DNA from: a virus
Direction: 5' to 3' (one strand)
Virus record (IMG/VR): IMGVR_UViG_3300023174_000443
Span: 1 to 32,235 of that record
DNA length: 32,235 nt
Shown in pieces: positions 13,283-29,444 of this stretch (the first letter of the stretch is position 1; each line of letters starts with the position of its first letter). The notes beneath the pieces are model-generated. The model was not told where the DNA came from and made no database searches. It worked only from the letters and a program-made list of their open reading frames with translations. A program made the position numbers and the translations under genes.

Positions 13283-13296
13283 CCTGTTATAATTAA
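13283..13296 (+). promoter_or_regulatory. Extended -10 promoter cassette
   Basis: CCTGTTATAATTAA: TG, one base, then a TATAAT-type -10 box. Transcription would begin near 13300, followed by the ATGACGAAAGGAG leader that holds the RBS of the gene at 13330. Confidence 0.7.
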
Positions 13297-13329
13297 ACTC
13301 CAATGACGAAAGGAGACAATAAAAACAAT

Positions 13330-13992
13330 ATGCCAAACATACTACAGGTGGCACGTTTTACGACACCCGTAAAGCTGCCAACGCAGGCTGGCCCTGCACA
13401 AAGTGCGCCAGAAGCTAAGACCCTCGAGTTAAACAATCACCACAGGCTGGTGCTTGCAGCTCTAGGATCTACGTCACAGCCCATGGCTGCGAGCGAGATC
13501 ATCGCGTTCCTAAACAGCAAGTCAGAGCGTAAAAAGTATGCCGACGGAAACGTGCGGCCTTTTATACTCGAGCTTGTTGGAGCAGGAAAGGTTTTCTCTC
13601 GGATGGAGGAGTCACACGAACGTCAGGTTCGCGCAGGTGGTGGAACGTTCCGCAAGAACATGTCCGCAACCTTGTACTCAACTTCAAACCCAGTTCCGAC
13701 CCGCACGATTACCGAGATCGTTCCAGGAGTTATCCTAGTAGATAACACCGGAATCCCTTGGTCAAAGACCAAGCCGTGGTCAAAGAAGAAAAAAGAAAAG
13801 CAGTCTTCCAAGGTAGAACTTATCGAGGTAGATGAGCCAAGATCTTCCCACCCAGGGTCGAGCAACAACGAGATGGTGGATTATTTAATTCAAAGGATCG
13901 TTGCTGAGCGTACCGCTGAAATTCAAAAGGAGCTAGACTCCACGAAGGCCGAGCTAAATCGCCTACGTGATTTCCTTAAGTCAGCTATCTAA
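13330..13992 (+). CDS. Winged-helix-like DNA-binding protein with C-terminal coiled coil
   Basis: 220 residues starting MPNILQVARFTTPV. An ATG 27 bp upstream is in frame but belongs to the conserved ACGAAAGGAG leader, so I take the later ATG. Residues about 33-90 look like a winged helix: HHRLVLAALGSTSQPMAASE, then FLNSKSERK and FILELVGAGKVF. The middle is basic (KTKPWSKKKKEKQSSK), and the C-terminus is a coiled coil (EIQKELDSTKAELNRLRDFL). It is likely a dimeric transcription regulator; its target is unknown. It has its own early-type promoter. Confidence 0.75.
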   Translation: MPNILQVARFTTPVKLPTQAGPAQSAPEAKTLELNNHHRLVLAALGSTSQPMAASEIIAFLNSKSERKKYADGNVRPFILELVGAGKVFSRMEESHERQVRAGGGTFRKNMSATLYSTSNPVPTRTITEIVPGVILVDNTGIPWSKTKPWSKKKKEKQSSKVELIEVDEPRSSHPGSSNNEMVDYLIQRIVAERTAEIQKELDSTKAELNRLRDFLKSAI

Positions 13993-14013
13993 TTTTAGTT
14001 TACGGTTGCGCCC

Positions 14014-14244
14014 ATGGCAACCTACCAGCTTTACGTAGTAAACTCTCTTGATCAGGCTCGGCGTCTTGAGGACGAGGAGCCTGTGGAGTTTTTACAGGAC
14101 GACGATCAATGCTCTTCCTGCGGCGACGAAATTGGAGTTGTCGGTAATAAGCTAATCCCCTGCGTTGTCTGTATAGATGAGGCAGATGACTACTGGCTTG
14201 TCTGCGCCGAGTGCGCGTCTAACGTAATTACCCCCGGACAATAG
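14014..14244 (+). CDS. Acidic zinc-ribbon protein
   Basis: 76 residues with CSSCG near residue 33, CVVC near 50 and CAEC near 66, enough for a zinc ribbon or a small two-site fold, embedded in an acidic context (RRLEDEEPVEFLQDDDQ). No SD is seen before the ATG. It follows the winged-helix gene by 21 bp and is probably co-transcribed. Function unknown. Confidence 0.7.
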   Translation: MATYQLYVVNSLDQARRLEDEEPVEFLQDDDQCSSCGDEIGVVGNKLIPCVVCIDEADDYWLVCAECASNVITPGQ

Positions 14245-14257
14245 ATTTTATTTTTTT

Positions 14258-14410
14258 ATGAGAAAAATAAAGATAGGTGTCTTACTTAATTTTTGTATAG
14301 TAGTCCTAGCACTTACTTATATAAGCAAGCAGGCAATGCAGGAAATTCAAGTAGATTTTTTTATAAAATATCCAGAACTGAATCCAGCTAATGGAGGCCC
14401 CTCGCGTTAG
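14258..14410 (+). CDS. 50-residue single-TM protein
   Basis: It begins MRKIKIGVLLNFCIVVLALT: a basic start and one hydrophobic helix, followed by a polar tail exposed on one side (QEIQVDFFIKYPELNPANGG). No SD is visible before the ATG. The TAG lies inside the loop of the terminator hairpin that follows. Could be a membrane-targeted host-interaction peptide; no family recognised. Confidence 0.5.
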   Translation: MRKIKIGVLLNFCIVVLALTYISKQAMQEIQVDFFIKYPELNPANGGPSR

Positions 14411-14433
14411 CGAGGAGCCTCTTAAGTTTTACT
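14396..14433 (+). terminator. Rho-independent terminator
   Basis: CCTCGC (14400-14405), loop GTTA, GCGAGG (14410-14415), with outer GGC/GCC pairs and single-base bulges, then TCTTAAGTTTT. It ends the plus-strand unit just before the convergent gene at 14436. Confidence 0.75.
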
Positions 14434-14435
14434 GA

Positions 14436-14768
14436 TTACTCAGCGTCTACGATTGTGTACTCGGTTGAAACCAAGGACGCCTCGTAGGCTTCAGGATATG
14501 CAGCCTGAAGAATCTTGCGATCAACTTTAGTTAGGGTGCGATCTTTGATCTCAACGCGCTTTACGCCGTCGATGAATCCAAGCTTTGCATCTCCAAGTAG
14601 TTGCCGAATTATTTCCTCGGCAGCTTTCTTTTTAGCCTCAAGGACCTTTATGTCCTCCTTGGCCTTAGCGAACTCCTTGATAACTGCGTCTGCAGATTGA
14701 TCAAGATGAGCTACGGTGTGTGACACCACGATTTCCGTGGTTGTGGTTCTAACTGCGGTGCTGGTCAT
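14436..14768 (-). CDS. Coiled-coil protein resembling the accessory tail of phage recombination nucleases
   Basis: 110 residues from the ATG at 14768 (MTSTAVRTTTTEIVV). The upstream in-frame ATG lies in the ATGACGAAGGGAAGG leader. A long helix (AKAKEDIKVLEAKKKAAEEI) leads into LLGDAKLGFIDGVKRVEIKD and a final K-V-D-R-K-I-L-x-x-A-Y-P-E-A-Y segment. That L-G-D-A ... D ... L-x-x-x-Y-P-E-x-Y pattern resembles the C-terminal extension I know from YqaJ-type recombination exonucleases and from stand-alone phage proteins. Its nuclease partner, if any, is outside this window. It is the only minus-strand gene between 8834 and the window end and has its own divergent promoter. Confidence 0.75.
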   Translation of the reverse strand: MTSTAVRTTTTEIVVSHTVAHLDQSADAVIKEFAKAKEDIKVLEAKKKAAEEIIRQLLGDAKLGFIDGVKRVEIKDRTLTKVDRKILQAAYPEAYEASLVSTEYTIVDAE

Positions 14769-14815
14769 TTGGACCCTTCCCTTCGTCATTTATGCCACCC
14801 GGTTGGTTGCATGGA

Positions 14816-14843
14816 TTAATTATATCAGGTAATACGATATAAT
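14816..14843. promoter_or_regulatory. Back-to-back divergent promoters
   Basis: TTAATTATATCAGG at 14816-14829 is the consensus promoter cassette on the minus strand and drives the 14436 gene. ACGATATAAT ending at 14843 puts a plus-strand TATAAT only 14 bp away. The two -10 boxes share this short segment, so binding at one probably affects the other. Confidence 0.6.
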
Positions 14844-14891
14844 AGACTCTAAACACCCAGGGAGTTGGAGTTGTTAGGAGTCGCCTAGATT

Positions 14892-14905
14892 CCTGATATA
14901 ATTGA
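14892..14905 (+). promoter_or_regulatory. Extended -10 promoter cassette
   Basis: CCTGATATAATTGA, followed by the AACGACGAAAGGA leader and the ATG at 14933. A second plus-strand TATAAT lies about 55 bp upstream, giving tandem promoters. Confidence 0.75.
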
Positions 14906-14932
14906 TCCTACCCAAACGACGAAAGGATAAAC

Positions 14933-15391
14933 ATGGCTGAAAAAGACAAGGTCATTGGTAAGGCGCTCTACACAGAGTATCGCTCTGGTTCACAGACCTA
15001 CCAGTTGATGATCACACCGGACGGAGTTAACTCCGGCGGTAAATATGTACCGGCGATGGTGTACCGACGCCAGGTATCATCGAGCAGACCACGTAGGGCA
15101 TGGAAGAGCTACAGCCTTCCATCACTCAACGTAAACGAGTTCGGAGCATTTACAACGATGCCTAAGGATCAAGCAATTGATTCTGCCAAGCGCAGACTTG
15201 AATTTATGCTAACAACAATCAACCAGATGGTGGGATACAAGTATCAACTGTATAAGCTACCTATCATAGTTGAGGTTGCCTCAGAGGATCTGGACGGAAT
15301 TCGCCTTGGCAAGACGCCTTACAAGGTACTAGGTCGAATTACTAGAGTTCGCAAGGCTCTAGGTTTCAGTGACGAATTATTTGCAAGCTAA
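14933..15391 (+). CDS. Hypothetical protein upstream of the MoxR-vWA pair
   Basis: 152 residues with a beta-rich N-terminus (ALYTEYRSGSQTYQLMITPD and PAMVYRRQV), a central helix (AIDSAKRRLEFMLTTINQMV) and a basic C-terminus. No motif is recognised. The leader is the standard CGACGAAAGGA RBS cassette. It lies directly ahead of the AAA+ ATPase with 30 bp between them, and the pair share the same leader style, so a functional link to the ATPase is possible but unproven. Confidence 0.75.
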   Translation: MAEKDKVIGKALYTEYRSGSQTYQLMITPDGVNSGGKYVPAMVYRRQVSSSRPRRAWKSYSLPSLNVNEFGAFTTMPKDQAIDSAKRRLEFMLTTINQMVGYKYQLYKLPIIVEVASEDLDGIRLGKTPYKVLGRITRVRKALGFSDELFAS

Positions 15392-16481: not shown

Positions 16482-16495
16482 CCTGATATAATTAA
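16482..16495 (+). promoter_or_regulatory. Extended -10 promoter cassette
   Basis: CCTGATATAATTAA, exact consensus. The downstream leader AAATGACGGAAGGAAATAAAA leads to the GTG at 16520. Confidence 0.78.
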
Positions 16496-16519: not shown

Positions 16520-18346
16520 GTGGGACACATAAAGGTATCCGCAACTCGTGCGGAACGTACACCTTCAGAGTGGCTGCCAACTGGCGCACGCATTGGTGAA
16601 CTAGTAAACACCTGGGCAGGACGCTCAGATATTGTTGCATACGTTGGACCCGGAGCTGGTGGACCAACCCCAGCCTGTTTTAATCCAATATGCGCCGAGG
16701 TTGAGATTAACATTGACGCTGCCTTTGGTAAAGGCATCACACCTGAGATGATTGGTGATCTAACCAATCGTGATAACTTATTCGAGTGGCCTAGAGCTTC
16801 CGGTGCAATATTCCATGAAGCGCTACACGCACGCTACTCACGCTATTCCCTTGAGGCTGCACAAAAAGAACTTTCAAAGTATGAGTTCCAGGCATTCATG
16901 TCCCTTGAGGAGTCTCGTATTGAAAAGCATGGAGTTGATAACTTCCCAGCTAATCGAGTCTTCCTACGCGCCTGCGCATTGGAAATAGTTCTACATGATA
17001 TTCAAGAGCAAGCAGAGCAACACCTTGCGCATGGAGTTCGTTCCATCGCAGGTCTTGCCGCACTTACCTGTGCTCGTGTTGATGCTGGTTCTCTTGATAC
17101 AGAAGACATTGAAGAGATTAAGGCAATTGTAATTGAGCACCTAGGTCAAGATGTCTACGATTCAATTCGTCAGATCTGGATCAAGTTCCAATCTCATGAC
17201 AACCATACAGATCCAAGGTACCTATACGAACTTGCACGCGAGTGGGAGAAGATTCTCTCTCAGCTTGCCAAGGAGACCGGCGAGCAACCTGAGGTTGGCA
17301 TGCCTGCAGATAAAGGAATCTTAATTCTTATTGACGCAGTGATGGAAGATCTAAAGGAAGCTATTAAGGAGGCAGCGTCTAACGTTGCGATTGCCACAGG
17401 TGATGAGGTCCAGGATCAAGAACAAAAGGAAGATTGGCAGAAGGTTGTTGATCTACGTAGCAAGGCTGCGCGTCAACAACGTGATCACGAGCAGGTAGCT
17501 CATGATGTGTTCTCTAAGTCTACCACAGAGATTAGCTCTACAGGTAGTGGATCATTACTTAAGGAGACTCGTTCTCCAACTCCTGCTGAGCGAGCTGCCG
17601 CCGTCAAGATTGCTCAACTACTTGAGAAGGCTAAGTACCGTGAGCGCGATGAGACTGAGATTCAGTCTATACTTCCTCCTGGACGTCTACGCACTCGCGC
17701 AGTAGTTCAACAGGCTGCCTACAAGGCACAGGGCTCAATGATGAACGCAGAACCTTGGAGACGTACAGTGCGCAAGCACACTGATGATCCAACACTGAAG
17801 GTCGGTGTGATGGTCGACATCTCCGGATCTATGAGTGCAGCAATGGAACCTATGGCAGCAACTGCCTGGGCGATGAGTGAAGCTGCTCGTCGTGTTCAAG
17901 GTCGTTGCGCGATGGTCTACTATGGTTCAGGTGTGTTCCCTACTCTTAAGCCAGGGCAACATCTTGATCAGGTAAACGTCTACACTGCTCCTGACGCTAC
18001 CGAGAAGTTTGATAAGGCATTCAAGTCTCTTGATGGTTCTCTTGGTCTACTACAAAGTACCGGCGCTCGTCTACTTGTGGTAGTGAGTGATGGTGTCTAT
18101 ACTGAAACCGAGCTTGATAACGCTAAGCACTGGGTTCGTGAGTGTGAACGTAATGGAGTTGCAGTCCTATGGTTATCATACGAGAATGAAGGGTACAACC
18201 CTCATCGTGGATACCTTGAAAAGATTACTGAAGGTACAGCAACAGTTGTACTAAATAATCTAAAGGATCCAGCAGCTGCCGCGCTACAGATTGGTCAGTC
18301 AGCAGCAAAAGCTCTAGAAAAGATTGGCAGAAAGAACGCTGCCTAA
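16520..18346 (+). CDS. vWA-domain protein with HEXXH motif, CobT-like partner of the MoxR ATPase
   Basis: 608 residues from a GTG correctly spaced after GGAAGGA. Residues 99-103 read HEALH, a zinc-metalloprotease-type HEXXH, followed about 30 residues later by a LEESRIEKHG segment that could supply the third ligand. A long helical middle follows, then a C-terminal vWA domain with a MIDAS motif DISGSMS at about 433-439 and a later VVVSDGVYTE near 520. MoxR plus vWA pairs form chaperone-like machines, as in cobaltochelatase CobS-CobT and RavA-ViaA. HEXXH together with vWA is also known in phage and bacterial homologues. Whether the HEXXH is catalytic is unknown. Confidence 0.85.
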   Translation: MGHIKVSATRAERTPSEWLPTGARIGELVNTWAGRSDIVAYVGPGAGGPTPACFNPICAEVEINIDAAFGKGITPEMIGDLTNRDNLFEWPRASGAIFHEALHARYSRYSLEAAQKELSKYEFQAFMSLEESRIEKHGVDNFPANRVFLRACALEIVLHDIQEQAEQHLAHGVRSIAGLAALTCARVDAGSLDTEDIEEIKAIVIEHLGQDVYDSIRQIWIKFQSHDNHTDPRYLYELAREWEKILSQLAKETGEQPEVGMPADKGILILIDAVMEDLKEAIKEAASNVAIATGDEVQDQEQKEDWQKVVDLRSKAARQQRDHEQVAHDVFSKSTTEISSTGSGSLLKETRSPTPAERAAAVKIAQLLEKAKYRERDETEIQSILPPGRLRTRAVVQQAAYKAQGSMMNAEPWRRTVRKHTDDPTLKVGVMVDISGSMSAAMEPMAATAWAMSEAARRVQGRCAMVYYGSGVFPTLKPGQHLDQVNVYTAPDATEKFDKAFKSLDGSLGLLQSTGARLLVVVSDGVYTETELDNAKHWVRECERNGVAVLWLSYENEGYNPHRGYLEKITEGTATVVLNNLKDPAAAALQIGQSAAKALEKIGRKNAA

Positions 18347-18444: not shown

Positions 18445-19365
18445 ATGAAGAACAAGATAATCGTTGCGGCGATAGCCTCAATGTTAATAGCTGGGCTAGC
18501 AGGTCCGGTAAGTGCTACACCACAAAAAACCTTGGTCATTATTGACTCAGGAGTTAACTCTCAGCTTGACTGGGTAAAGAATGCACTTGTTGATGAGGCA
18601 TGCTTTATTGAGTTCGGCAAGTGTCCAAATGGACAACAGTCAATGACTGGCCCAGGAGCTGCAACACTTGCGGCGACTGACGCAGCCAAGGACAAAACGT
18701 TCAGCCACGGAACGCAGATGGCTTCAGTTGCAGTTGCGGTTAACCCTGGAGTTAAGATAGCTGCGGTTCGTGTCGTAGGTATGTCTGACAAGGGCTTTGC
18801 CAATACCTACAGAACTAACTCGTTGGCTCCAGCTCTCGATTGGGTTATTGCAAATGCTGCACGACTAAACGTCGGCGCGGTGTCGATCTCGCTTGGACGT
18901 TCGTACTCAGAAGCTACGTGTCCGGTTGAGGCTCCGCTGCAATCTCAAATTATTGCGTTGAAGCAAAACAACATCGGCGTGTTTATCGCTGCCGGCAACG
19001 GGTCAAATCCAACCAAGGTTGACTATCCGGCGTGTATACCTGAGGCAATAGCTGTCGGAGCAACGGACACACAATATTCATTGCGCGGTGTGACCGGATG
19101 GATATATCCTGTGATGCGTATCTCAAACGGTGGCGCGGATCTAGATCTATATGCCCTGGGCAAGTACACCACGATCGGTCTAGACGGTAAACCTGTCGTA
19201 GCCATTGGTACCTCCGCGGCAACAGCTGCGGTAGCCTCCAAGTGGACTCAGGCGATCGGACAAGGCGGCACGTATGATTCCGTATGGACATCATTCACAG
19301 CCGGGCTAGGAAACGCGTATCGGTCATTAACCGATGTGGTTGCCAAGCAATTCATAATATCCTGA
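18445..19365 (+). CDS. Secreted subtilisin-like (S8) serine protease
   Basis: 306 residues from the ATG after AGAAGGACAAC. Starting at the upstream ATG (18421) would add eight mostly basic residues. A signal peptide (MKNKIIVAAIASMLIAGLAG, then PVSA) probably cleaves after residue 24. The catalytic set is complete: Asp34 in VIIDSGVN, His88 in SHGTQMAS, the oxyanion Asn185 in AAGNGS, and Ser257 in GTSAATAA. At about 280 mature residues with no clear prodomain it is compact for the family. It acts outside the cytoplasm, perhaps on host surface proteins or on phage tail proteins. Subtilases are uncommon in phages. Confidence 0.9.
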   Translation: MKNKIIVAAIASMLIAGLAGPVSATPQKTLVIIDSGVNSQLDWVKNALVDEACFIEFGKCPNGQQSMTGPGAATLAATDAAKDKTFSHGTQMASVAVAVNPGVKIAAVRVVGMSDKGFANTYRTNSLAPALDWVIANAARLNVGAVSISLGRSYSEATCPVEAPLQSQIIALKQNNIGVFIAAGNGSNPTKVDYPACIPEAIAVGATDTQYSLRGVTGWIYPVMRISNGGADLDLYALGKYTTIGLDGKPVVAIGTSAATAAVASKWTQAIGQGGTYDSVWTSFTAGLGNAYRSLTDVVAKQFIIS

Positions 19366-19374
19366 TATAATAGA
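19361..19374 (+). promoter_or_regulatory. Extended -10 promoter overlapping the protease stop codon
   Basis: CCTGATATAATAGA. The TGA at 19363-19365 is at once the stop codon of the protease gene and the TGn element of the promoter. Confidence 0.75.
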
Positions 19375-19483: not shown

Positions 19484-19690
19484 ATGGCTAGATACACTTT
19501 TAGATTCGATGAGATCGCATCAAACCAGGTTTGGTTTGAGGCTGATGATCTACATCATGCAACAGAACTAATGAGACAGGTAGAGAACGAAGAGATAAAT
19601 GTCTCTGACCTTCCACGCGCGGAGGAACGCAACCGCGGAATCCAAATGGACTTCAGTGTTTCAATGCTCGAGTCTGACTCTGTTTCCTGA
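19484..19690 (+). CDS. Hypothetical protein behind a structured leader
   Basis: 68 residues, MARYTFRFDEIASNQVWFEA then a helix (LHHATELMRQVENEEINVSD) and a strand-like end (GIQMDFSVSML): a small alpha/beta protein, strongly acidic. ACGGAGGGA precedes the ATG. The TGA stop is shared with the next promoter. Unknown function; notable for the structured RNA ahead of it. Confidence 0.75.
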   Translation: MARYTFRFDEIASNQVWFEADDLHHATELMRQVENEEINVSDLPRAEERNRGIQMDFSVSMLESDSVS

Positions 19691-19699
19691 TATAATTAA
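19686..19699 (+). promoter_or_regulatory. Extended -10 promoter overlapping a stop codon
   Basis: CCTGATATAATTAA, exact consensus, with the upstream gene's TGA (19688-19690) inside it. ACGACGGAAGGA follows ahead of the ATG at 19724. Confidence 0.78.
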
Positions 19700-19723
19700 A
19701 CCAACAACGACGGAAGGAATACC

Positions 19724-20156: not shown

Positions 20157-20170
20157 CCTGATATAATTAA
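20157..20170 (+). promoter_or_regulatory. Extended -10 promoter cassette
   Basis: CCTGATATAATTAA, exact consensus, beginning at the base after the upstream stop codon; ACGACGGAGGGA follows before the ATG at 20196. Confidence 0.78.
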
Positions 20171-21145: not shown

Positions 21146-21159
21146 CCTGATATAATTCA
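21146..21159 (+). promoter_or_regulatory. Extended -10 promoter of the noncoding RNA
   Basis: CCTGATATAATTCA. No ACGACGAAAGGA leader and no coding gene follow for 335 bp; instead a structured RNA ends at a terminator near 21438. Confidence 0.72.
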
Positions 21160-21162: not shown

Positions 21163-21440
21163 ATAACTAAATAAAAGGATTGGACTAACCAAGCTCGAAG
21201 GTGTAAGGGTTCCACATGGTGGAGTACTCCCGATAAGCTAGTACGGTGCGGAAAGGGTAGCAACTGTATGTCATAAGACCGCTGCATTGCTCAGTGTTAT
21301 CCGTAGAGACTCTACCAAGACAGGACAAGGTCGTAAGACTAAGGTTCTTGAGGTCGGACCAAAGAGTTGAGGGAGAGACGCCTGTCCAGTAGTTGTGGGA
21401 TCAGTTTTCATTCGACATGGGCTGGTCCCACTCTTATTTT
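21163..21440 (+). ncRNA. Structured noncoding RNA of about 280 nt, unknown class
   Basis: A dedicated promoter at 21146 and a 10-bp terminator stem at 21395-21431 bound a region with no plausible gene. Helices visible by eye are CCAC-ATG-GTGG (21212-21222), GTACT/AGTAC (21224-21228 with 21240-21244), GCGG/CCGC (21248-21251 with 21279-21282), GTAGA/TCTAC (21303-21315), and GACAGG/CCTGTC (21319-21324 with 21381-21386). The last encloses a stem capped by a GTAA tetraloop (21333-21336) and a GGTTC/GGACC stem. I tested it by eye against RNase P RNA, tmRNA, SRP RNA and group I intron signatures and found none. Size and structure suggest a regulatory RNA, decoy or scaffold. Confidence 0.75.
21395..21438 (+). 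terminator. Terminator of the noncoding RNA
   Basis: GTGGGATCAG (21395-21404) pairs with CTGGTCCCAC (21422-21431), ten base pairs with one wobble, followed by TCTTATTTT. Confidence 0.82.
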
Positions 21441-21456
21441 ACTTTATGGAAGAAAA

Positions 21457-21470
21457 CCTGATATAATTAA
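21457..21470 (+). promoter_or_regulatory. Extended -10 promoter cassette
   Basis: CCTGATATAATTAA, exact consensus; ACAACGACGAAAGGA follows before the ATG at 21495. Confidence 0.78.
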
Positions 21471-21494
21471 CCTTACAACGACGAAAGGATGAAC

Positions 21495-21722
21495 ATGAAG
21501 GTATCAGAAGCGATTAAGGCTCTTCAAGGATATGACCTTGATGAGGAGATAATGATTCAGTGGTACGCCAAGGAACACTCAGAATACATGGAGGACGATG
21601 AAACTCCTGTTAACGTGTGGAACCGTGCGGTTGAACTTTTTGAAGCTGACCCATGCGACGCCGAGTCATTCGGTTTTGTTGACTGCCTTGATAAGGCAAG
21701 AGACGAAGTAGAAAATGGCTAA
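21495..21722 (+). CDS. Acidic hypothetical protein
   Basis: 75 residues starting MKVSEAIKALQGYDLDEEIM. An in-frame ATG 6 bp upstream is too close to the AAAGGA RBS. The opening V-S-E-A-I-x-x-L-x-x-x-D-x-D-E-x-I pattern occurs in many small phage proteins of unknown role; the body is acidic (EHSEYMEDDETPVNVW). It overlaps the start of the sigma-like gene by 8 bp and is probably coupled to it. Confidence 0.75.
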   Translation: MKVSEAIKALQGYDLDEEIMIQWYAKEHSEYMEDDETPVNVWNRAVELFEADPCDAESFGFVDCLDKARDEVENG

Positions 21723-22317
21723 AAAGAAAATTGTAAGACACTCTGTCCCCATGAAAAGTGGACTGTCACTTCCTGCGGAGGTTGTGGTTGCGCTGCACCT
21801 GTTCCCAAAGAATCAGTTGCACCTGCGCGATGCGTACATCTATATTCTTCGCATGAAGGGTTGGACGCTCGAGTCCGTGGGGCAAGCTCTTGACCTTACG
21901 CGCGAGCGTATTCGCCAACTTGAGAGTAAGGCTAAACCACTTGACGCGATAACAATTCTTTCTAGTCCAGGGTCATATCCTGTCCCTGAGGTTCCAACAA
22001 GAATCGTTGAGGAGGAGATAGTTGTGTACGCGGAGCCTTCACCGGAGACACTTGCTCGTCTTCTTGAGCTACGGCCTATTGCCGAGAAGGTAAGATCTAA
22101 TAGTCCACTTGGTCGTGAGGCCGCGGAAGAGTACTCAAGACTAATTAACCACGCGCACGTGGTTGAGGAAGTTCCTCTGTACCGTCTAGCCAAGCGCATA
22201 GGCGTGACCCACGGAGCCTTGCGGTTTAGACTCGTTCGCTACGGGTATCTAGAGACTAAGAACGGTAAAAGTAGATGCTACAAGAAGATCATTGACAAGA
22301 ACAGGTTTTCAAGATGA
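21715..22317 (+). CDS. Sigma-region-4-like DNA-binding protein with a second HTH
   Basis: 200 residues. Residues about 44-74 (YILRMKGWTLESVGQALDLT then RERIRQLESKA) closely follow sigma-70 region 4.2, where the T-R-E-R-I-R-Q-[IL]-E helix reads the -35 element. A flexible middle is followed by a C-terminal HTH near 150-175 (PLYRLAKRIGVTHGALRFRL). There is no region 2, so it is not a complete sigma factor. It may be an anti-sigma or appropriator-like protein, or a transcription activator that contacts RNA polymerase; this is inference. Overlaps genes on both sides, so it is embedded in an operon. Confidence 0.8.
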   Translation: MAKKKIVRHSVPMKSGLSLPAEVVVALHLFPKNQLHLRDAYIYILRMKGWTLESVGQALDLTRERIRQLESKAKPLDAITILSSPGSYPVPEVPTRIVEEEIVVYAEPSPETLARLLELRPIAEKVRSNSPLGREAAEEYSRLINHAHVVEEVPLYRLAKRIGVTHGALRFRLVRYGYLETKNGKSRCYKKIIDKNRFSR

Positions 22318-22759: not shown

Positions 22760-22978
22760 ATGGATACCGGTGTAAAGGAACAGGTTGAGGTAAGAGATCC
22801 CTCGTTTACCGAGTGGATCCAGTGTGACTCATGTAGCGTTGCTCGCGCCACCTGGAAGATTATTGGAGATTCCGGTGAGCTATTTCTATGCGGCCATCAC
22901 AAGACCCGCCATGAGGCTGGGCTTACCCAGTGGGCAAAGGAATTTGTTGAACTGGAGCTAAAGACTTCAAAGTCCTGA
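22760..22978 (+). CDS. DUF7455-like zinc protein, second plus-strand copy
   Basis: 72 residues with CDSCSVARATW and LFLCGHHKTRHEAGL: the same C-x2-C ... C-x2-H arrangement as the 20915 and 3325 products. The N-terminus differs (VKEQVEVRDPSFTEWI). The TGA stop is shared with the next promoter. Retaining three related copies suggests distinct partners for each. Confidence 0.78.
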   Translation: MDTGVKEQVEVRDPSFTEWIQCDSCSVARATWKIIGDSGELFLCGHHKTRHEAGLTQWAKEFVELELKTSKS

Positions 22979-22987
22979 TATAATTAA
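22974..22987 (+). promoter_or_regulatory. Extended -10 promoter overlapping a stop codon
   Basis: CCTGATATAATTAA, exact consensus, containing the TGA (22976-22978) of the upstream gene. The leader here is AACAAAGGGAGAGATT, a variant of the usual RBS. Confidence 0.78.
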
Positions 22988-23008: not shown

Positions 23009-23140
23009 ATGGACTACGTTATTAAGGTCAGCGAGGAAGAGCTACAACTTATTCTTATCGCTCTTGAGGGAAACAAGAACCTTCAAAAAAATATCAAGGA
23101 TCAAGCCTGGGAACAGGTTCTATCAGCCTACCTTTCCTGA
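23009..23140 (+). CDS. 43-residue helical hypothetical protein
   Basis: MDYVIKVSEEELQLILIALE, followed by KNLQKNIKDQAWEQVLSAYL and a final S. Two amphipathic helices with an S-E-E-E-L-Q-x-I-L-x-A-L-E pattern as in small phage proteins. AAAGGGAGAGATT precedes the ATG. The stop TGA is part of the next promoter. Function unknown. Confidence 0.68.
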   Translation: MDYVIKVSEEELQLILIALEGNKNLQKNIKDQAWEQVLSAYLS

Positions 23141-23149
23141 TATAATTAA
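23136..23149 (+). promoter_or_regulatory. Extended -10 promoter overlapping a stop codon
   Basis: CCTGATATAATTAA, exact consensus, containing the TGA (23138-23140) of the upstream gene. ATGACGAAAGGA follows before the ATG at 23172. Confidence 0.78.
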
Positions 23150-23171: not shown

Positions 23172-23486
23172 ATGGAATTTTACGCGAGTCATGACATCAA
23201 TGCTTCAGGCACATCACTTCAAGGATACATCACTACTACCCAAAGTGATTTAATCGACACTTTTGGAGAACCAATTCGCTTCGATGAGGATACCGATAAG
23301 GTTACCCTTGAGTGGATAATTCAATTTGTAAACAATGAGATCGCGACGATCTACGACTGGAAGCGCTACGAGCTTGGAACTCCAGGAATGGATGAGGTGT
23401 GCGAGTATCACATCGGAGGAAACTCCAAAGATGTAGTTTCACTGATCAAGGAAGCAATGCACCCTAACTTTAAGGTTCTCTCTTGA
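23172..23486 (+). CDS. Conserved-type phage hypothetical protein
   Basis: 104 residues starting MEFYASHDINASGTSLQGYI. The ATG at 23154 is in frame, but it lies in the conserved leader. Pattern: LIDTFGEPIRFDEDTDKVTL, EWIIQF, IATIYDWKRYELG and a H-I-G-G-N-S segment. The F-G-E-P ... D-K-V-T-x-E-W ... I-Y-D-W-K layout is familiar from uncharacterised phage proteins. It is probably a compact alpha/beta protein; no activity known. A TTG-started gene overlaps its stop. Confidence 0.78.
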   Translation: MEFYASHDINASGTSLQGYITTTQSDLIDTFGEPIRFDEDTDKVTLEWIIQFVNNEIATIYDWKRYELGTPGMDEVCEYHIGGNSKDVVSLIKEAMHPNFKVLS

Positions 23487-23745: not shown

Positions 23746-24036
23746 ATGGCAACAAAAACTGCCAAGCCCGTAGCCAAACCTGCGCGAATAAAGCCAGGGA
23801 CTCGAGTAGAAACTCTTCCCTCTTTGTCACGTGGAGTTAAGCTACCAACAGGTTATACACCGGCGTATTTCCGTAAGCGTAAAACGCTTGCAGTATTACG
23901 TGCAGTGAATAGCTCACACTACCTAGTGTTTAACACCTCAACAGGTGAAAAACTCCAGGTCGCTTCTACGAAGGAGGCTTCTCGCTTCATGAGCCAAGTT
24001 CGTAAAGGAACTAAAAAGTTCCCAAAAACAAAGTAA
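23746..24036 (+). CDS. Basic hypothetical protein
   Basis: 96 residues from the ATG at 23746; in-frame upstream codons lie within the leader. Lys/Arg-rich start (MATKTAKPVAKPARIKPGTR) and end (MSQVRKGTKKFPKTK), with a central beta-rich core (TLAVLRAVNSSHYLVFNTST). Net strong positive charge suggests nucleic-acid or ribosome binding. No family recognised. Confidence 0.72.
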   Translation: MATKTAKPVAKPARIKPGTRVETLPSLSRGVKLPTGYTPAYFRKRKTLAVLRAVNSSHYLVFNTSTGEKLQVASTKEASRFMSQVRKGTKKFPKTK

Positions 24037-24079: not shown

Positions 24080-24093
24080 CCTGATATAATTAG
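24080..24093 (+). promoter_or_regulatory. Extended -10 promoter cassette
   Basis: CCTGATATAATTAG, followed by AGACGGAAGGA and the ATG at 24116. Confidence 0.75.
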
Positions 24094-24115: not shown

Positions 24116-24274
24116 ATGAAAATCTGTAAAACATATAACTGTAAAAACACAGAGCTGGTGTATTCCGGAATCGATGCGGTTGTGCTTGAGGTGACTCCTG
24201 ACACGTACTGTTATCCTTGTGCAAATATCTACGCGCAAATTAAGCGCGACATGAATTCACTGGTTAAAAGCTAA
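24116..24274 (+). CDS. 52-residue zinc-binding-type protein
   Basis: MKICKTYNCKNTELVYSGID, then VVLEVTPDTYCYPCANIYAQ and a basic end. Four well-placed cysteines (C4, C9, C-Y-P-C near 33-36) fit one zinc site. The stop TAA overlaps the next ATG. It has its own cassette promoter. Function unknown. Confidence 0.68.
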   Translation: MKICKTYNCKNTELVYSGIDAVVLEVTPDTYCYPCANIYAQIKRDMNSLVKS

Positions 24275-24749: not shown

Positions 24750-24763
24750 CCTGATATAATAGT
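24750..24763 (+). promoter_or_regulatory. Extended -10 promoter cassette
   Basis: CCTGATATAATAGT starting at the base after the upstream stop; ACGACGAAAGGAAGGT precedes the ATG at 24788. Confidence 0.78.
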
Positions 24764-24787: not shown

Positions 24788-25120
24788 ATGAGTATCGAGA
24801 CACTTTTATCTGAGATATCCTCAGGTGCCCATGACTCCTCCCTCGGGAAGATCAATGAGGCAGTTGCCCAACGCCTAAAGGCAGTTCGTAAGGAACGTAC
24901 CATCAACGACTATAACATCGGTGATAAGGTCAAGTTCAACGAGCAAACAGGCACCAGGTACATGGTAGGCGAAACCGCCACCATAGTTTCAAAGAACCGT
25001 ACGAAGGTTGTGGTTCGTTTGGATAATCCAACAGGAAGGTTTGCCAGGATAAACCCTGTCACCCGTCAGGTTGAGTCCTCAAACGTGACCTGCCCAGTAG
25101 GAATCCTGGACCTAGTATAA
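24788..25120 (+). CDS. SH3/KOW-like small beta-barrel protein
   Basis: 110 residues. A helical N-terminus (INEAVAQRLKAVRKERTIND) precedes a beta-barrel-like stretch at about 43-80: YNIGDKVKFNEQTGTRYMVG, ETATIVSKNRTKVVVRLDNP. The G-D-x-V-x-F ... G-x-x-A-x-I-V-x-K-N-x-x-K-V-x-V layout resembles SH3/KOW-type nucleic-acid or protein binders. It may associate with ribosomes, RNA or RNA polymerase; inference only. A strong hairpin follows. Confidence 0.75.
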   Translation: MSIETLLSEISSGAHDSSLGKINEAVAQRLKAVRKERTINDYNIGDKVKFNEQTGTRYMVGETATIVSKNRTKVVVRLDNPTGRFARINPVTRQVESSNVTCPVGILDLV

Positions 25121-25132: not shown

Positions 25133-25160
25133 GCGCGTAGGATACAGTTGTCCTACGCGC
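25133..25160 (+). terminator. Perfect 10-bp hairpin
   Basis: GCGCGTAGGA (25133-25142) pairs exactly with TCCTACGCGC (25151-25160). Only TTAGGATTTG follows, a weak T stretch. It could terminate the upstream unit or serve as a 5' structure for the protease gene that starts 20 bp later. Confidence 0.6.
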
Positions 25161-25180
25161 TTAGGATTTGTGGGGGAACT

Positions 25181-25744
25181 ATGACTACTCTTGCGGCCAT
25201 ACAAGGTGATGGCTGGTGCACGATCGGTGCGGACAGTCAAGCTAGCGATGAATCTGGTTTCATGATGCAGATTGTCACAGGCAAAACATTTAAGAACGGA
25301 CCTACGCTAATCGCAGGTGCAGGTGCGGTGCGTGGAATCAACATACTTCAGTTTGGTTGGTCAGCACCTCGCTTCGCCGGCAGGTCTACAGACGAATACA
25401 TGACAAAGGTATTTATACCTAGCATGCGACAGGCGTTTATTAAATCTGGATACGACATGAAGGACGATGGAGACGTAGCGTACAACGACAACAACTTCAT
25501 CGTTGCGGTTAAGGGAAATCTTTACAGCATTGCCGAGGATTACTCGTGGGAAAGATGTAAGCGTGGACTCTACGTTGCCGGTTCAGGAGGCAAGTACGCT
25601 CTTGGAGCTCTCGGAGCTCTACAGGCTGAAAAAGCTAAGAACGTTGAGGAGGCTGAGAAGCTGCTGCGAAAGGCAATTGAGGTTTCTATACGGTGGGATG
25701 CCTACTCAGGTGGAGAGATAACGATCATGTCTCAGAGAGGCTAG
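25181..25744 (+). CDS. Proteasome-beta / HslV-like Ntn-hydrolase
   Basis: 187 residues from the ATG at 25181 (GGGGGAACT before it). After Met removal the protein starts Thr-Thr (TTLAAIQGDGWCTIGADSQA), the classical N-terminal nucleophile arrangement of the T1 family, with Asp at position 18. GKTFKNGPTLIAGAGAVRG supplies the expected Lys and glycine-rich turn, and GLYVAGSGGKYALGALGAL matches the later G-S-G-x-x-x-A-x-G-A segment. It needs no propeptide cleavage beyond Met. No regulatory ATPase of HslU or Mpa type is in the window. It could form its own chamber or mix with host proteasome subunits, an inference that depends on host. Confidence 0.85.
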   Translation: MTTLAAIQGDGWCTIGADSQASDESGFMMQIVTGKTFKNGPTLIAGAGAVRGINILQFGWSAPRFAGRSTDEYMTKVFIPSMRQAFIKSGYDMKDDGDVAYNDNNFIVAVKGNLYSIAEDYSWERCKRGLYVAGSGGKYALGALGALQAEKAKNVEEAEKLLRKAIEVSIRWDAYSGGEITIMSQRG

Positions 25745-25748: not shown

Positions 25749-25762
25749 CCTGATATAATAGA
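25749..25762 (+). promoter_or_regulatory. Extended -10 promoter cassette
   Basis: CCTGATATAATAGA, followed by GTGACGAAAGGAC and the ATG at 25789. Drives the phosphatase and deacetylase genes downstream. Confidence 0.77.
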
Positions 25763-25788: not shown

Positions 25789-26016
25789 ATGGACGTAAAA
25801 AACATGACGTACGTAGTTCAAACACCTACCTGCCGACTTTGCAACAAAACCGGTACGGTTGAGATTCCAGCCGATGGTTTCTTTAAGTGGAACTTTGGCA
25901 TGTTAATTCAAGACGCGCTACCTGATTTGGACAAATCACTACGAGAACAAATGATGACCGGAACTCACCCGAGTTGCTGGGAACTAATGATGCACGATGA
26001 AGAGGACAACGAGTAA
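25789..26016 (+). CDS. Hypothetical zinc-motif protein, first gene of the phosphatase-deacetylase operon
   Basis: 75 residues from the ATG at 25789; the GTG 18 bp upstream is in the leader. CRLCNKTGTVEIPADG followed by FKWNFGMLIQDALPDL, REQMMTGTHPSCW: a C-x2-C knuckle plus a later H-P-S-C that may complete a zinc site. The C-x2-C-x-x-T ... W ... I-Q-x-A-x-P ... G-x-H-x-x-C-W pattern resembles a common actinophage hypothetical. It overlaps the phosphatase ATG by one base. Confidence 0.78.
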   Translation: MDVKNMTYVVQTPTCRLCNKTGTVEIPADGFFKWNFGMLIQDALPDLDKSLREQMMTGTHPSCWELMMHDEEDNE

Positions 26017-26537
26017 TGGAAATTGTAGAGGACAAAAACTTATACGCACCAGTTCACGATATTGGCTGGGACTTCCCCCTATGGAGTGAGATCCTCCCAG
26101 GTTTATGGCTTGGTGGTACGGATGACAATGACACGATTGAAACCGGTGTCAATGCGTACTTGCCACGTGTAATTACAAAGAATGAATTTGATACGGTGGT
26201 CACACTTTACTCATGGGCTCAACCTGTTGACTGGTTGGTCGAGGAGGCACGCTATGGATTCTACGATTCAGAGATCAGTCACATCGATTTTGATGCGGTT
26301 GAGAGAGCTGCAGAGTTTGCGTACAACGCCTGGAAGTCTGGTAAGCGTGTGTTAGTTCGCTGTCAGGCTGGAATAAATCGCTCAGGTCTTGTCATGGCTC
26401 ATGTTCTGATGAAGGACGGATACACGGCAAAGGGCGCGATAAATCTTATGCGGGAAAAAAGAAGTAAGGCTGTTTTATTAAACAACCACTTCGTTGATTA
26501 TTTAGTTATGTCCGAGGAGGTACCTAGTGCAAGATAA
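26016..26537 (+). CDS. Dual-specificity protein phosphatase-like
   Basis: 173 residues. The signature VRCQAGINRSG (C116, R122) is the C-x5-R-[ST] loop of cysteine-dependent phosphatases; the usual His before Cys is Arg here. EILPGLWLGG near the N-terminus is the standard opening strand of the family, and VVTLYSWAQP matches the next. An Asp in the YDSEISHIDFD stretch could be the general acid. Compact dual-specificity phosphatases occur in mycobacteria and their phages. Substrates might be host phosphoproteins or nucleotides. Cytoplasmic. The end overlaps the deacetylase start by 11 bp. Confidence 0.85.
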   Translation: MEIVEDKNLYAPVHDIGWDFPLWSEILPGLWLGGTDDNDTIETGVNAYLPRVITKNEFDTVVTLYSWAQPVDWLVEEARYGFYDSEISHIDFDAVERAAEFAYNAWKSGKRVLVRCQAGINRSGLVMAHVLMKDGYTAKGAINLMREKRSKAVLLNNHFVDYLVMSEEVPSAR

Positions 26538-27465
26538 GATACATGTAGCGTATGACGACGTGTACCTTGATTGGAAGCTAGGTGGTAGGACAACAGATTC
26601 ACATCCTACTAATCCTGTGCGTGCCAAGTACGCGACGCAACTTCTTTCTAACGATCATGAGCTTGTTATCGTAAAACCAGATATTCAAGAAGGCGATCGA
26701 GCTAGAGTTGAATCTATCCACGACAAGGACTATGTTTCTAGAGTTCTTGACGATGGCCATTGCGGCGAGTGGTACCCAGACCAGGTTGAGCTTGGAAAGG
26801 TTGCCCTTCACATGTTTGCCGGAACAGTTCGGTTAACAGAGAAGATGATTGCCGACGAGCTAAGGATTGGCTTTAATCCTCAGGGAGCTAAGCATCACGC
26901 TCAGTACGATCATAGCTCTGGCTTCTGCGTGTTTAACGACATGGCTTGGGCTGCAAAGGAATTTCAGAAAAATGGCATGAAGGTTATGTACATTGACTGG
27001 GACGCACATCACGGCGATGGCGTTGAAAACCTTTTGGCAGATGATCCTGATCTTGTGACGTGTTCTATTCACGACTCGGCTATCTTCCCTGGCACAGGAC
27101 TAAAAGGTCACTCGCCGAAAAAAGGAATATACAACTGGGCACTTGATCCAGCCAGCGGTGACGATACCTTTATGGCTGCCATGGGTGAGATTGAAACACT
27201 TGCCGATAAGATCAAGCCGGACGTAGTTCTGCTAGCTACCGGAGCCGATGCACATCGCACCGATCCGCTGTCTACGCTTAACTTTGACTACTACGGATAT
27301 GACTTTGCGGCTCGCACTGTTGGCCGAATTGCATCTTCCTACTCTCAAGGAAGAGTGCTCATCGGAGGAGCTGGTGGATACCAGCCGTTCGATCATACTC
27401 CTGCGATCTGGGCAAAGGTCGTAGACGCGGTCTACGAGGAGGTTTCACTTTTCGCAAGAAAGTGA
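26527..27465 (+). CDS. Histone-deacetylase-fold (AcuC / acetylpolyamine amidohydrolase-like) enzyme
   Basis: 312 residues from a GTG behind GAGGAGGTACCTA. All arginase/HDAC-fold catalytic elements are present: tandem His123-His124 (AKHHAQYDHSSGFC), zinc ligands Asp159 and His161 in IDWDAHHGDG, third ligand Asp241 in TGADAHRTDPL, and the transition-state Tyr285 in GGAGGYQP. A N-terminal HPTNPVRAK resembles the H-P-E-x-P-x-R of HDACs. The predicted reaction is Zn-dependent removal of acetyl groups from lysines, polyamines or similar amines. In bacteria AcuC reactivates acetyl-CoA synthetase. In a phage it may reverse host acetylation or salvage acetate; this is inference. Phage-borne copies are rare to my knowledge. 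Confidence 0.9.
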   Translation: MQDKIHVAYDDVYLDWKLGGRTTDSHPTNPVRAKYATQLLSNDHELVIVKPDIQEGDRARVESIHDKDYVSRVLDDGHCGEWYPDQVELGKVALHMFAGTVRLTEKMIADELRIGFNPQGAKHHAQYDHSSGFCVFNDMAWAAKEFQKNGMKVMYIDWDAHHGDGVENLLADDPDLVTCSIHDSAIFPGTGLKGHSPKKGIYNWALDPASGDDTFMAAMGEIETLADKIKPDVVLLATGADAHRTDPLSTLNFDYYGYDFAARTVGRIASSYSQGRVLIGGAGGYQPFDHTPAIWAKVVDAVYEEVSLFARK

Positions 27466-27614: not shown

Positions 27615-27615
27615 C

Positions 27616-29010
27616 ATGGCAAAGAGCATGATGGAAAAGTTAGCTCTCCTCTCTGAGGAGGAGAAGCAGGCCGTGCTTGCAGGATTCGATGCCGATCAAC
27701 TTCTTTGGGACTGGTCCGTGTGGGGTCGGCCTGAACAGCAGGCGCCTGAGGGCGATTGGTCAATCTGGCTTTACATGGCTGGTCGCGGAGCTGGTAAGAC
27801 TCGCACTGCAGCCGAGTGGGTAAGAACGGAAGCGCGCGATTCAAGCAAAGGACAGAAGCGTTTTGCACTCGTAGCTCGAACTGCCGCTGACGTACGTGAC
27901 GTTATCGTTGAGGGTGAGTCAGGAATCATTAACGTGACTCCTCCTAGCGAGCGCCCGTTGTACGAACCGTCAAAGCGAAGACTAACCTGGCCAAACGGAA
28001 ACACAGCTACTTGTTTCACAGCTGATGAGCCGGATTCCCTCCGTGGTCCACAATTTACTCACGCCTGGGGCGATGAGGTTGCAGCCTGGAGGCAAACTCC
28101 CGATGCGGCAGGTATGACCGCGTTCGATAACCTTCGCGTCGGTACTCGTCTTGGAGCTAATCCAAAGATCATGGTGACGACAACTCCTAAGCGTGTTCCG
28201 CTGCTCTACCAGCTGATGGCTGAGGCGACCAAGACAGGGCGTGTGGTAATTACACGTGGTTCAACCATGGACAACACCGGAAATCTTTCTAAAACCTATC
28301 TAGACGCCATTCTTGGCGTGTACGAGGGTACTCGTCTAGCAAGTCAGGAGCTATACGGTGAGATGCTCTCGGACGTCGAGGGAGCTCTGTGGACACAGGA
28401 ACTTATCGATAAGGGACGTGACATGCAGTATCCGATCGGAACTCCGCTACGCTGCATCGGTGTAGATCCTTCCGTAGCTGAAAATCCACGAGACGAGTGC
28501 GGCATAGTTGTCGTAGCCTCAACCGGTGAACGAGATCTTTACAAGCGTCAGAGCTGGGTACTTGAGGACGCGTCCATTCACGGCTCGCCCGACGTGTGGG
28601 CAAACCGAGTAGTTCAGATGGCTCGCAAGTGGGGCTGTCCTGTCGTGGCTGAGGTTAACCAAGGTGGTGCGCTTGTTCGCAACGCCATAAACACGATTGA
28701 CCCAACGGTAAAGGTTCTTGAGGTACACTCCAAGTACGGCAAGGCACTTCGCGCCGAGCCGATAACCCTTGCCTACGAGCAAACCCGCGTTCATCACGTG
28801 GGCTACCTTGGAGACCTAGAGTCTCAGATGTGTGCCTGGATTCCTGGCGAGGGTAAATCCCCCGACCGAGTCGACGCGCTGGTCCATGCCCTTACGGCGC
28901 TGCTGATCAAGCCACCCTCCGGCTTCATGGGCGGAAAGATCAAGGCCAAATCTCCAGCTCACCGAAAGATCCCGAGTTTCAGGGGCAGAGGCGGGTTCTC
29001 TGTCAGGTAG
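27616..29010 (+). CDS. terL: Terminase large subunit
   Basis: 464 residues. Walker A AGRGAGKT at 55-62, Walker B THAWGDE near 147-153 with the catalytic Glu, a motif-III-like MVTTTPK, and a C-terminal RNase-H-like nuclease with Asp in CIGVDPS near 280-286 and the late SPDRVDALVHA near 415-424. Length and motifs fit a complete TerL. It translocates DNA into proheads and cuts it. Unusually, the small subunit gene is 16 kb upstream, and no portal gene follows. The start lacks an SD and is covered by an operator palindrome, which suggests timed late expression. Confidence 0.95.
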   Translation: MAKSMMEKLALLSEEEKQAVLAGFDADQLLWDWSVWGRPEQQAPEGDWSIWLYMAGRGAGKTRTAAEWVRTEARDSSKGQKRFALVARTAADVRDVIVEGESGIINVTPPSERPLYEPSKRRLTWPNGNTATCFTADEPDSLRGPQFTHAWGDEVAAWRQTPDAAGMTAFDNLRVGTRLGANPKIMVTTTPKRVPLLYQLMAEATKTGRVVITRGSTMDNTGNLSKTYLDAILGVYEGTRLASQELYGEMLSDVEGALWTQELIDKGRDMQYPIGTPLRCIGVDPSVAENPRDECGIVVVASTGERDLYKRQSWVLEDASIHGSPDVWANRVVQMARKWGCPVVAEVNQGGALVRNAINTIDPTVKVLEVHSKYGKALRAEPITLAYEQTRVHHVGYLGDLESQMCAWIPGEGKSPDRVDALVHALTALLIKPPSGFMGGKIKAKSPAHRKIPSFRGRGGFSVR

Positions 29011-29012
29011 AT

Positions 29013-29026
29013 CCTGATATAATAGT
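29013..29026 (+). promoter_or_regulatory. Extended -10 promoter cassette
   Basis: CCTGATATAATAGT, followed by a hairpin AAGGCA-ACAA-TGCCTT (29033-29048) and then AACGACGAAAAGGAC before the ATG at 29070. The extra stem is absent from most other cassettes. Confidence 0.76.
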
Positions 29027-29069
29027 TCTTACAAGGCAACAATGCCTTAACGACGAAAAGGACACCCAT

Positions 29070-29138
29070 ATGTTAGTACTAGTTGCATTTCCAATACTCA
29101 TGCTTGGTACACTTTTATTTGTGGCATTTAGCCTATAA
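29070..29138 (+). CDS. 22-residue hydrophobic microprotein
   Basis: MLVLVAFPILMLGTLLFVAF followed by SL. One membrane helix and nothing else. A consensus promoter, the CGACGAAAAGGA RBS and a dedicated strong terminator bracket it, so the peptide is probably real. It would sit in the host membrane; its role is unknown. Confidence 0.62.
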   Translation: MLVLVAFPILMLGTLLFVAFSL

Positions 29139-29151
29139 TACAGACGTAAGC

Positions 29152-29187
29152 AAAAAACCCTGGAACTAATCTTCCAGGGTTTTTTAC
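29152..29187. terminator. Bidirectional terminator
   Basis: AAAAAACCCTGGAA (29152-29165) pairs exactly with TTCCAGGGTTTTTT (29172-29185). A-tract and T-tract on the two sides make it work on both strands. Confidence 0.9.
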
Positions 29188-29199
29188 TTTCCTGATCTT

Positions 29200-29213
29200 C
29201 CTGATATAATTAA
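29200..29213 (+). promoter_or_regulatory. Extended -10 promoter cassette
   Basis: CCTGATATAATTAA, exact consensus. The leader here (CATCAACGGATTGGAGATCCAAG) has GGAG in place of the usual AAAGGA. Confidence 0.77.
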
Positions 29214-29238
29214 ACCATCAACGGATTGGAGATCCAAG

Positions 29239-29412
29239 ATGGCTAAGTACGAGGCTGGAAATCAAACGTGCTACGTATATACCTTTAATGACCCTTCACT
29301 AAGCAACATACTTCAATATTGCCGTAGCTACGCCGAGGCTGAGTCCTGGGCACAGACCTACAGAAGCATGGGACTTGCAAGCTGGGGTGAAAGAAACACC
29401 GTATCAAGATAA
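29239..29412 (+). CDS. 57-residue hypothetical protein
   Basis: MAKYEAGNQTCYVYTFNDPS, then SNILQYCRSYAEAESWAQTY and a short Arg/Ser end. A beta hairpin followed by a helix. TTGGAGATCCAAG precedes the ATG. No family recognised; two cysteines seem insufficient for a metal site. Confidence 0.66.
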   Translation: MAKYEAGNQTCYVYTFNDPSLSNILQYCRSYAEAESWAQTYRSMGLASWGERNTVSR

Positions 29413-29430
29413 TTCAATTATCCTGACCTT

Positions 29431-29444
29431 CCTGTTATAATTAA
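29431..29444 (+). promoter_or_regulatory. Extended -10 promoter cassette
   Basis: CCTGTTATAATTAA, identical to the one at 13283, with AAAACGACGAAAGGAC before the ATG at 29476. Confidence 0.75.

Follow-up and report, generated by a model that had tools for sequence, protein, structure and literature searches.

How are the many small genes of a phage module started when near-identical sequences recur in front of them? This question is raised by IMG/VR record IMGVR_UViG_3300023174_000443, which was analysed in its entirety (32,235 bases; the window) and is read as a piece of a tailed-phage genome. The recurring element is a cassette composed of an extended −10 core and, usually, a downstream Shine-Dalgarno (SD) element. 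The source is a freshwater virus of actinobacteria carrying about 19 of these near-identical gene switches. The host would be an actinobacterium, judging from WhiB genes, the SD type, and cultured relatives of the large terminase (TerL) on Microbacterium and Gordonia. Comparison of the window with its relatives indicates that the cassettes are, very probably, class-wide extended −10 promoters that do not depend on a −35 and go together with an SD element of a dedicated form.

Cassettes of the window

A scan of the window with CCTGATATAATTAA at up to three mismatches gave 21 matches where 2.55 were expected, and the highest of 100 shuffles gave 6. Exact copies of the core were found seven times on the plus strand and once on the minus strand, and the reversed-pattern control gave none. 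At no more than one mismatch, CCTGATATAAT matched 17 plus-strand sites (13283 to 29431) and one minus-strand site (14829-14816). The plus-strand site at 18398 has a weaker core, CCGGATCTAATTAA, in a layout identical to that of the others. The total is 18 plus-strand cassettes and one minus-strand cassette, which are intergenic and oriented with the genes. The network was thus confirmed as real and far above chance, in agreement with the first-pass annotation, which had counted at least 16 plus-strand sites and one exact minus-strand site and had described extended −10 promoters in a network, most of them followed by an SD leader. Their density is roughly one per two genes.

The sequence GACG[AG]A[AG]GG lies downstream of 12 of the 18 plus-strand sites, or 13 when GACGAAAAGG at 29052 is counted. 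A start codon is present within 40 nucleotides of the predicted transcription start site (TSS) at 16 of the 18; the exceptions are 19361, with a leader of 106 nucleotides, and 21146, which has no gene. The remaining leaders measure 15–40 nucleotides. Searched alone at up to three mismatches, ACGACGAAAGGA was found 45 times in the window against 27 expected, which is only a mild enrichment.

The 40 nucleotides upstream of the cores have a mean identity of.28, like unrelated DNA, and the cores one of.89 (17 plus-strand sites), which argues that the copies are kept alike by selection and not by recent duplication. The near-identity of the copies would also suit a mobile or recombining repeat that spread without regulatory selection. 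This is scarcely credible, as the flanks are unrelated, the starts are close, a single orientation relative to the genes is observed, and the cassette is kept in relatives in which a sigma-70 region-4-like protein encoded in the module has half diverged.

Promoter anatomy and the Shine-Dalgarno element in relatives

No near match to the window was found among 50,697 phage records. TerL of the window type matched 462 stretches of viral contigs, and 80 TerL relatives from viral contigs (82–100% identical) were kept. The nearest named records by TerL are Actinomycetia phage DSL-LC01 (OQ999401.1; 79%) and Microbacterium phages (about 61%). The loci of the window and its relatives contain 415 distinct motif sites at 15 bits or more, which were reduced to 205 by flank similarity. 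At a 9-bit cut-off, the count of relative G002 (28) was also reached with one or more of 30 column-shuffled matrices, and later counts therefore use only sites of at least 15 bits. Genes in the relatives were called with a simple purpose-made caller that missed small genes.

The profile of the 205 sites reads (A/T)(A)CC TG(A/t) TATAAT (T/A)(A/G)(A/T), in which TGnTATAAT is near-invariant. Seven nucleotides past the last T of the −10, an A is found in 79% of the sites, preceded by a pyrimidine; its place and the kind of base are those expected for a putative transcription start. All columns more than 10 nucleotides upstream of TATAAT carry at most 0.19 bits, and matches to TTGACA at a spacing of 15–19 nucleotides are close in number to those in shifted windows. 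The lack of a clear −35 noted earlier therefore holds in the window and most relatives, and a subset of relatives has T[TG]TA[CT]TT at the −35 position. For the analysis of this box, 356 sites with a downstream SD-like sequence were cut to 183 by flank similarity. Among these non-redundant sites of relatives, it was present at 15 of 36 sites with CATG versus 15 of 147 others (p 3.4e-5), and 21 of 32 boxes lie 23 nucleotides before TATAAT (−23), where a −35 canonically stands. Promoter logic would lead one to expect a −35-like box that makes up for a weaker extended −10 (CATG for CCTG). In the window, a similar box is seen by eye within about one base of the −35 place at 21457 and 29200. By these features, the cassette core is a predicted −35-independent extended −10 promoter.

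A same-strand start follows 5–60 nucleotides downstream of 79 of 123 sites in seven records, compared with 3.2% of random positions; an opposite-strand start was found at none, and four sites lie inside a called gene. The DNA just upstream of the cores folds with a mean z of −1.09 (−1.58 in DSL-LC01), compared with −0.15 to −0.26 at random positions. This more stable folding indicates that many units begin right behind the hairpin of the preceding unit.

The cassettes are also tied to one form of the SD element. When genes without a recognisable SD were excluded, GACGRARRG was found in seven records at 60 of 74 cassette genes versus 23 of 158 genes without a cassette whose upstream gap is at least 35 nucleotides (Fisher 4.6e-23), and at 7 of 120 tightly packed genes. 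The respective counts in DSL-LC01 are 17 of 26, 0 of 27, and 0 of 21. Pairing with the actinobacterial anti-SD is possible for GAAAGGA and cannot be extended by the ACGAC ahead of it. Between the TSS and the SD element, the leader varies in length and sequence, suggesting that the shared element belongs to translation initiation and not to the 5' end. A common 5' end had been claimed for the units. The claim is only partly correct: the sequence in common accompanies the SD and not the TSS, and the leaders range over 15–40 nucleotides, with a single one of 106.

The first-pass annotation had further suggested that an RNA-binding or anti-host factor could use the common leader as a shared handle. 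No evidence in favour of an RNA-binding factor was found, and the conserved leader includes the SD at the start codon. A repeat that works at the mRNA level, as the attachment point of an RNA-binding protein or a processing enzyme, would fit the conservation of ACGACGAAAGGA past the anti-SD match and its tie to cassette genes, but it is very improbable: the core is an exact extended −10 with an initiator at promoter spacing, the leader between TSS and SD is variable, and a cassette without SD precedes a noncoding RNA.

The favoured explanation is a promoter of the sigma-70/sigma-A type that would not need a −35, with the form CC-TG-n-TATAAT. RNA polymerase with a primary-type sigma factor would melt the extended −10, and transcription would begin at the A about 7 nucleotides downstream. 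The usual product would be an mRNA with a short leader and a strong extended SD, ACGACGAAAGGA, next to the start codon, and the module would be a row of small, separately started units of one expression class. The core, its orientation and position, the likely initiator base, its conservation in relatives, and the association of the SD with the promoter can be read from the sequences; from there, we infer reading of the cassettes by host RNA polymerase and its timing. The consensus lets one expression class be read off in a large uncultured family of freshwater actinophages, and it connects a signal for transcription with one form of SD; the role of this connection is left open in the cited passages of the 2011 and 2024 cluster K papers.

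Several observations weigh against this explanation. Part of the family lacks the cassette: G005 and several other relatives (L125, L128, L130, and L133) are without the TGnTATAAT network. A scan of a genome collection gave a single cassette match, inside a coding open reading frame (ORF) of 1041 amino acids, which was taken as chance; the product of this ORF resembles an isoleucyl-tRNA synthetase. The A occupies the exact predicted TSS at only 9 of the 18 plus-strand sites of the window, and the 5' ends of the cassettes are predictions. Five of the six TTGACA bases are present at 10 of the 205 sites versus 1–5 in shifted windows, and a weak −35 is possible at a few sites. For 44 of the 123 sites, no same-strand start was called within 5–60 nucleotides, for which longer leaders, missed small genes, and RNA genes are offered as the explanation. 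The records are related, and the site counts are non-independent.

Lineage-specific upstream parts and candidate factors

In the long relatives (G001–G003), at least 85% of the sites lie inside 16–19 kb of records of 130–136 kb. All 32 sites of the own motif of DSL-LC01 are located at 22.6–43.3 kb, in a small-gene region before TerL (reversed-sequence control, 1), and none is located in its annotated head, tail, and replication genes. This motif (L161–L164) reads GATTCTAAAG(A/T)TGTTATA(A/G)T with AGAATC behind, plus GACGAAAGGA, and GATTCT and AGAATC form a dyad around the −10. DSL-LC01 resembles the window in TerL (79% identical), module, TGTTATAAT core, and SD, whereas it differs in having GATTCTAAAG upstream in place of CC, a dyad around the −10, and only a weak region-4-like homolog. 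In G004 and G006, CCTGTTATAAT is found with TGTGCAG upstream; a −35-like box is often present in G003 and G008, and in G009 the motif ends in TTAT. The core and SD thus appear constant and the upstream part lineage-specific. As a separate observation by eye, G005 (L172–L176) has another repeated upstream pattern at about 58–70 kb, TTGCGAAATGTC with a TAGTNT-like −10, which carries a ACGAAAGGAAA / CGAAAGGAAA leader. A search for a shared second promoter motif outside the module yielded only diffuse AT-rich patterns.

The lineage-specific upstream parts (CC, GATTCTAAAG, TGTGCAG, T(T/G)TACTT) suggest that something beyond the core sets the specificity of each lineage, be it a phage factor or a differing host sigma. 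The simplest reading is still that the host by itself prefers extended −10 promoters. As the upstream half diverges while the core and SD stay, the family offers a testable case of promoter-factor co-evolution.

The upstream part may instead be an operator: a box particular to each lineage, overlapping the promoter and recognised by a repressor or activator of the phage. The dyad of DSL-LC01 would fit, as would a second CCTGA that stands 9 nucleotides before the core CCTGA (−14 from TATAAT), without a TATAAT of its own, at 18 of the 183 non-redundant sites; the inverted repeats of the extended start-associated sequence (ESAS) of cluster K mycobacteriophages are likewise described as subcluster-specific in PMC3203893. 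However, no dyad is evident in the window lineage. By eye, G004 and DSL-LC01 show conspicuous pairing of the arms around the −10, as a cruciform or RNA hairpin. This candidate was rejected because the arms covary no more than chance would give (largest z 2.5 in hundreds of tests). An operator is quite improbable.

The parallel with the start-associated sequence (SAS) of cluster K, drawn in the first-pass annotation, is apt in idea. According to PMC3203893 and PMC11373665, the SAS is a repeated SD-containing element confined to non-structural genes, present at many starts and mostly in one orientation (TM4, Adephagia); about half of the copies have the extended upstream element, which varies between subclusters and contains SigA-like promoters. 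In the window family, too, the SD repeat is conserved past anti-SD pairing and belongs to non-structural genes, and the annotated structural genes of DSL-LC01 are likewise free of sites. A constant core with a lineage-specific upstream part would be the counterpart of SAS and ESAS. The sequences differ, as had also been stated: the cluster K 13-mer GGGATAGGAGCCC has no match in the window at up to two mismatches. In the same sources, ESAS promoters have SigA-like −35 and −10 hexamers with an inverted repeat of 15–17 bp, whereas the window has an extended −10 without a −35; inverted repeats of 17 bp with SigA −35/−10 were not found in the window lineage, and the dyad of DSL-LC01 is shorter.

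Two other systems are comparable. The late promoters of Kayvirus (Staphylococcus phage vB_SauM-515A1) are phage-wide, with a long TG-containing −10 and no −35, from which the authors infer a phage-specific sigma factor (PMC7698491). Their consensus is TGTTATATTA with a G-enriched initiator 6 nucleotides downstream, whereas the window family has TGnTATAAT, A at 7 nucleotides, CC in front, a link to SD, and no match to PF04542. T4 middle promoters, as presented in PMC6755090, have an excellent, often extended −10 without a canonical −35 and serve as the model for a replaced −35 reading; their upstream box has a counterpart in some lineages of the family. Unlike in T4, nothing but CC is conserved as an upstream box in the window lineage; AsiA gave no match over the cut-off and MotA none at all, in searches without positive controls. 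A literature search for the motif letters returned only papers in unrelated fields, judged by title, and among the papers listed in searches for actinophage promoter literature none is on this phage family.

A sigma appropriation of the T4 kind would be an extra step on the favoured explanation and not its opposite. In it, a phage protein (the region-4-like one, or WhiB through binding to region 4 of sigma-A) would block or replace the reading of the −35 and steer host polymerase to these promoters without a −35, as AsiA and MotA do in T4. The region-4-like protein is about 200 amino acids long, with a sigma-70 region-4-like helix-turn-helix and a second, C-terminal one. It is found in 10 of 10 family records (PF04545, seven over the cut-off), within or beside the module, and its gene in the window is itself behind a cassette (21457). 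Matches to region 2 (PF04542) were found in 0 of 10 records, several of which are fragments. In an alignment of 38 sequences, the others are 41–82% identical to the window protein and RERxRQ is conserved. Its structural model is confident (predicted local distance difference test, pLDDT, 91), and fold searches gave weak matches only, none standing out. The gene is often directly upstream of TerL, which makes a packaging role of the protein conceivable; in DSL-LC01, a gene annotated as small terminase lies elsewhere. In addition, a second, shorter (about 163 amino acids) weak region-4-like homolog is present in many records (L134, L144, L149, and others), and Microbacterium phages have a region-4-like homolog at two places each.

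WhiB proteins can bind sigma-A region 4, and the titles of solved structures from the fold search name complexes of the two. WhiB genes are present in 7 of 12 records, with three each in G001–G003 and DSL-LC01; none was found in G005 or in records below 50 kb, and every other record above 50 kb has WhiB. RbpA was found in 0 of 12 records. The AsiA search gave 0 of 12 over the cut-off and two weak short matches with internal stops; none of the control genomes was matched and several records are fragments. The MotA search gave 0 of 12 matches, and none of the control genomes was matched there either. WhiB together with a sigma-70 factor is reported for the freshwater Nanopelagicales phages E7 and F5 in PMC10202952.

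The region-4-like protein without region 2, the WhiB genes, the absence of both WhiB and the network from G005, although it exceeds 50 kb, and upstream boxes that vary by lineage around a constant −10 would suit such an appropriation. However, region-4-like homologs also occur in records with 0–1 sites (L125, L128, L130, L132, L133) and in Microbacterium phages, which have no such sites in the parts examined; the protein therefore does not predict the motif and is insufficient as the sole specificity factor. The C-terminal helix-turn-helix is conserved although the promoters differ, and neither the fold searches nor those for AsiA and MotA lend support. Sigma appropriation is rather unlikely, and the region-4-like protein and WhiB are regarded as candidate factors. 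A wider proposal is somewhat more doubtful: in a switch of freshwater actinophages, the region-4-like protein and/or WhiB might free sigma-A from the −35, lineage boxes might insulate co-infecting relatives, and the structured RNA described below might act on the polymerase or on the shared leaders.

The noncoding RNA and neighbouring genes

The cassette at 21146, which has neither SD nor gene, is followed by about 280 nucleotides with a terminator-like hairpin at their end, and is predicted to drive a conserved structured RNA that carries a terminator of its own. Identity of this stretch is 91.8% to G001 over 377 nucleotides and 99% to L046, and the adjoining region-4-like proteins are 54% and 63% identical, respectively. 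The RNA being more alike than the neighbouring proteins could reflect exchange between phages or strong constraint. In alignment A3 (11 sequences), 38 pairs were predicted, with 97.6% of cells paired. Sixteen pairs are changed on both sides, against 9.6 in shuffles (0 of 500 as high) and at most 4 in slid structures, with a structure derived from the same alignment as tested. The single-sequence fold of the window RNA has moderate stability (z −1.62). A model of the first 117 positions gave matches in 4 of 53, 9 of 49, and 8 of 76 loci, several of which are overlapping records; the stretches of G002, G004–G007, G009, and DSL-LC01 gave none. L014 and L029 lack the body of the RNA, so that the promoter abuts the terminator. 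Rfam gave nothing at gathering score in the window and no plausible family for the RNA, which is a concrete new target within the network.

Table 1. Cassettes and other features of the window.
Feature	Position	Strand	Associated element or gene
Core CCTGTTATAATTAA	13283..13296	+	Gene 13330-13992
Exact core	14816..14829	-	Gene 14436-14768, partial RecE-like exonuclease family match; divergent to 14892
Core	14892..14905	+	SD 14916-14927; gene 14933-15391
Exact core	16482..16495	+	Gene 16520-18346 (weak VWA match); strong hairpin immediately upstream
Weak cassette CCGGATCTAATTAA	18398..18411	+	Gene 18445-19365 (subtilase)
Core	19361..19374	+	106-nucleotide leader; gene 19484-19690
Exact core	19686..19699	+	SD 19707-19718; short ORF from 19724 (27 amino acids)
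Exact core	20157..20170	+	Gene 20196-20378, then DUF3846 gene 20378-20743
Core without SD	21146..21159	+	Predicted promoter of noncoding RNA
Structured noncoding RNA (predicted)	21163..21445	+	Terminator-like hairpin 21395-21431 and T-rich tail
Exact core	21457..21470	+	SD 21478-21489; gene 21495-21722, then region-4-like gene
Region-4-like protein	21715..22317	+	Candidate transcription factor
Exact core	22974..22987	+	SD AAAGGGAG; gene 23009-23140
Exact core	23136..23149	+	Gene 23172-23486
Core CCTAATATAATTAA	23695..23708	+	Leader hairpin; gene 23746-24036
Core	24080..24093	+	ORF 24116-24274
Core CCTGATATAATAGT	24750..24763	+	Gene 24788-25120
HslV-like protease	25148-25744		Same module as cassettes
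Core	25749..25762	+	Gene 25789-26016, then 26016-26537 and 26527-27465
TerL	27616-29010		
Core CCTGATATAATAGT	29013..29026	+	Leader hairpin AAGGCAACAATGCCTT; SD 29050-29061
Exact core	29200..29213	+	Directly behind terminator-like hairpin; gene 29239-29412
Core CCTGTTATAATTAA	29431..29444	+	SD 29457-29468; gene 29476-29709
Subtilase	18445-19365		Same module as cassettes
CobS-like AAA ATPase gene			Followed by gene with weak VWA match (16520-18346)
Endolysin gene			
Phosphatase gene			

Between the divergent cassettes at 14816-14905, a third −10-like sequence, CGATATAAT, is present near 14834 on the plus strand. Besides the features listed in Table 1, the window contains many small genes. A protein of the histone-deacetylase family is encoded at 26527-27465 (Pfam E 2e-54), in the module shared with the HslV-like protease and the subtilase. 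At 60-3303, six plus-strand ORFs of 167–201 amino acids and low G+C content (37%) stand in a row. They align as paralogs, being 22–49% identical to the first with a C-terminal LYGI in common, and are perhaps virion surface proteins.

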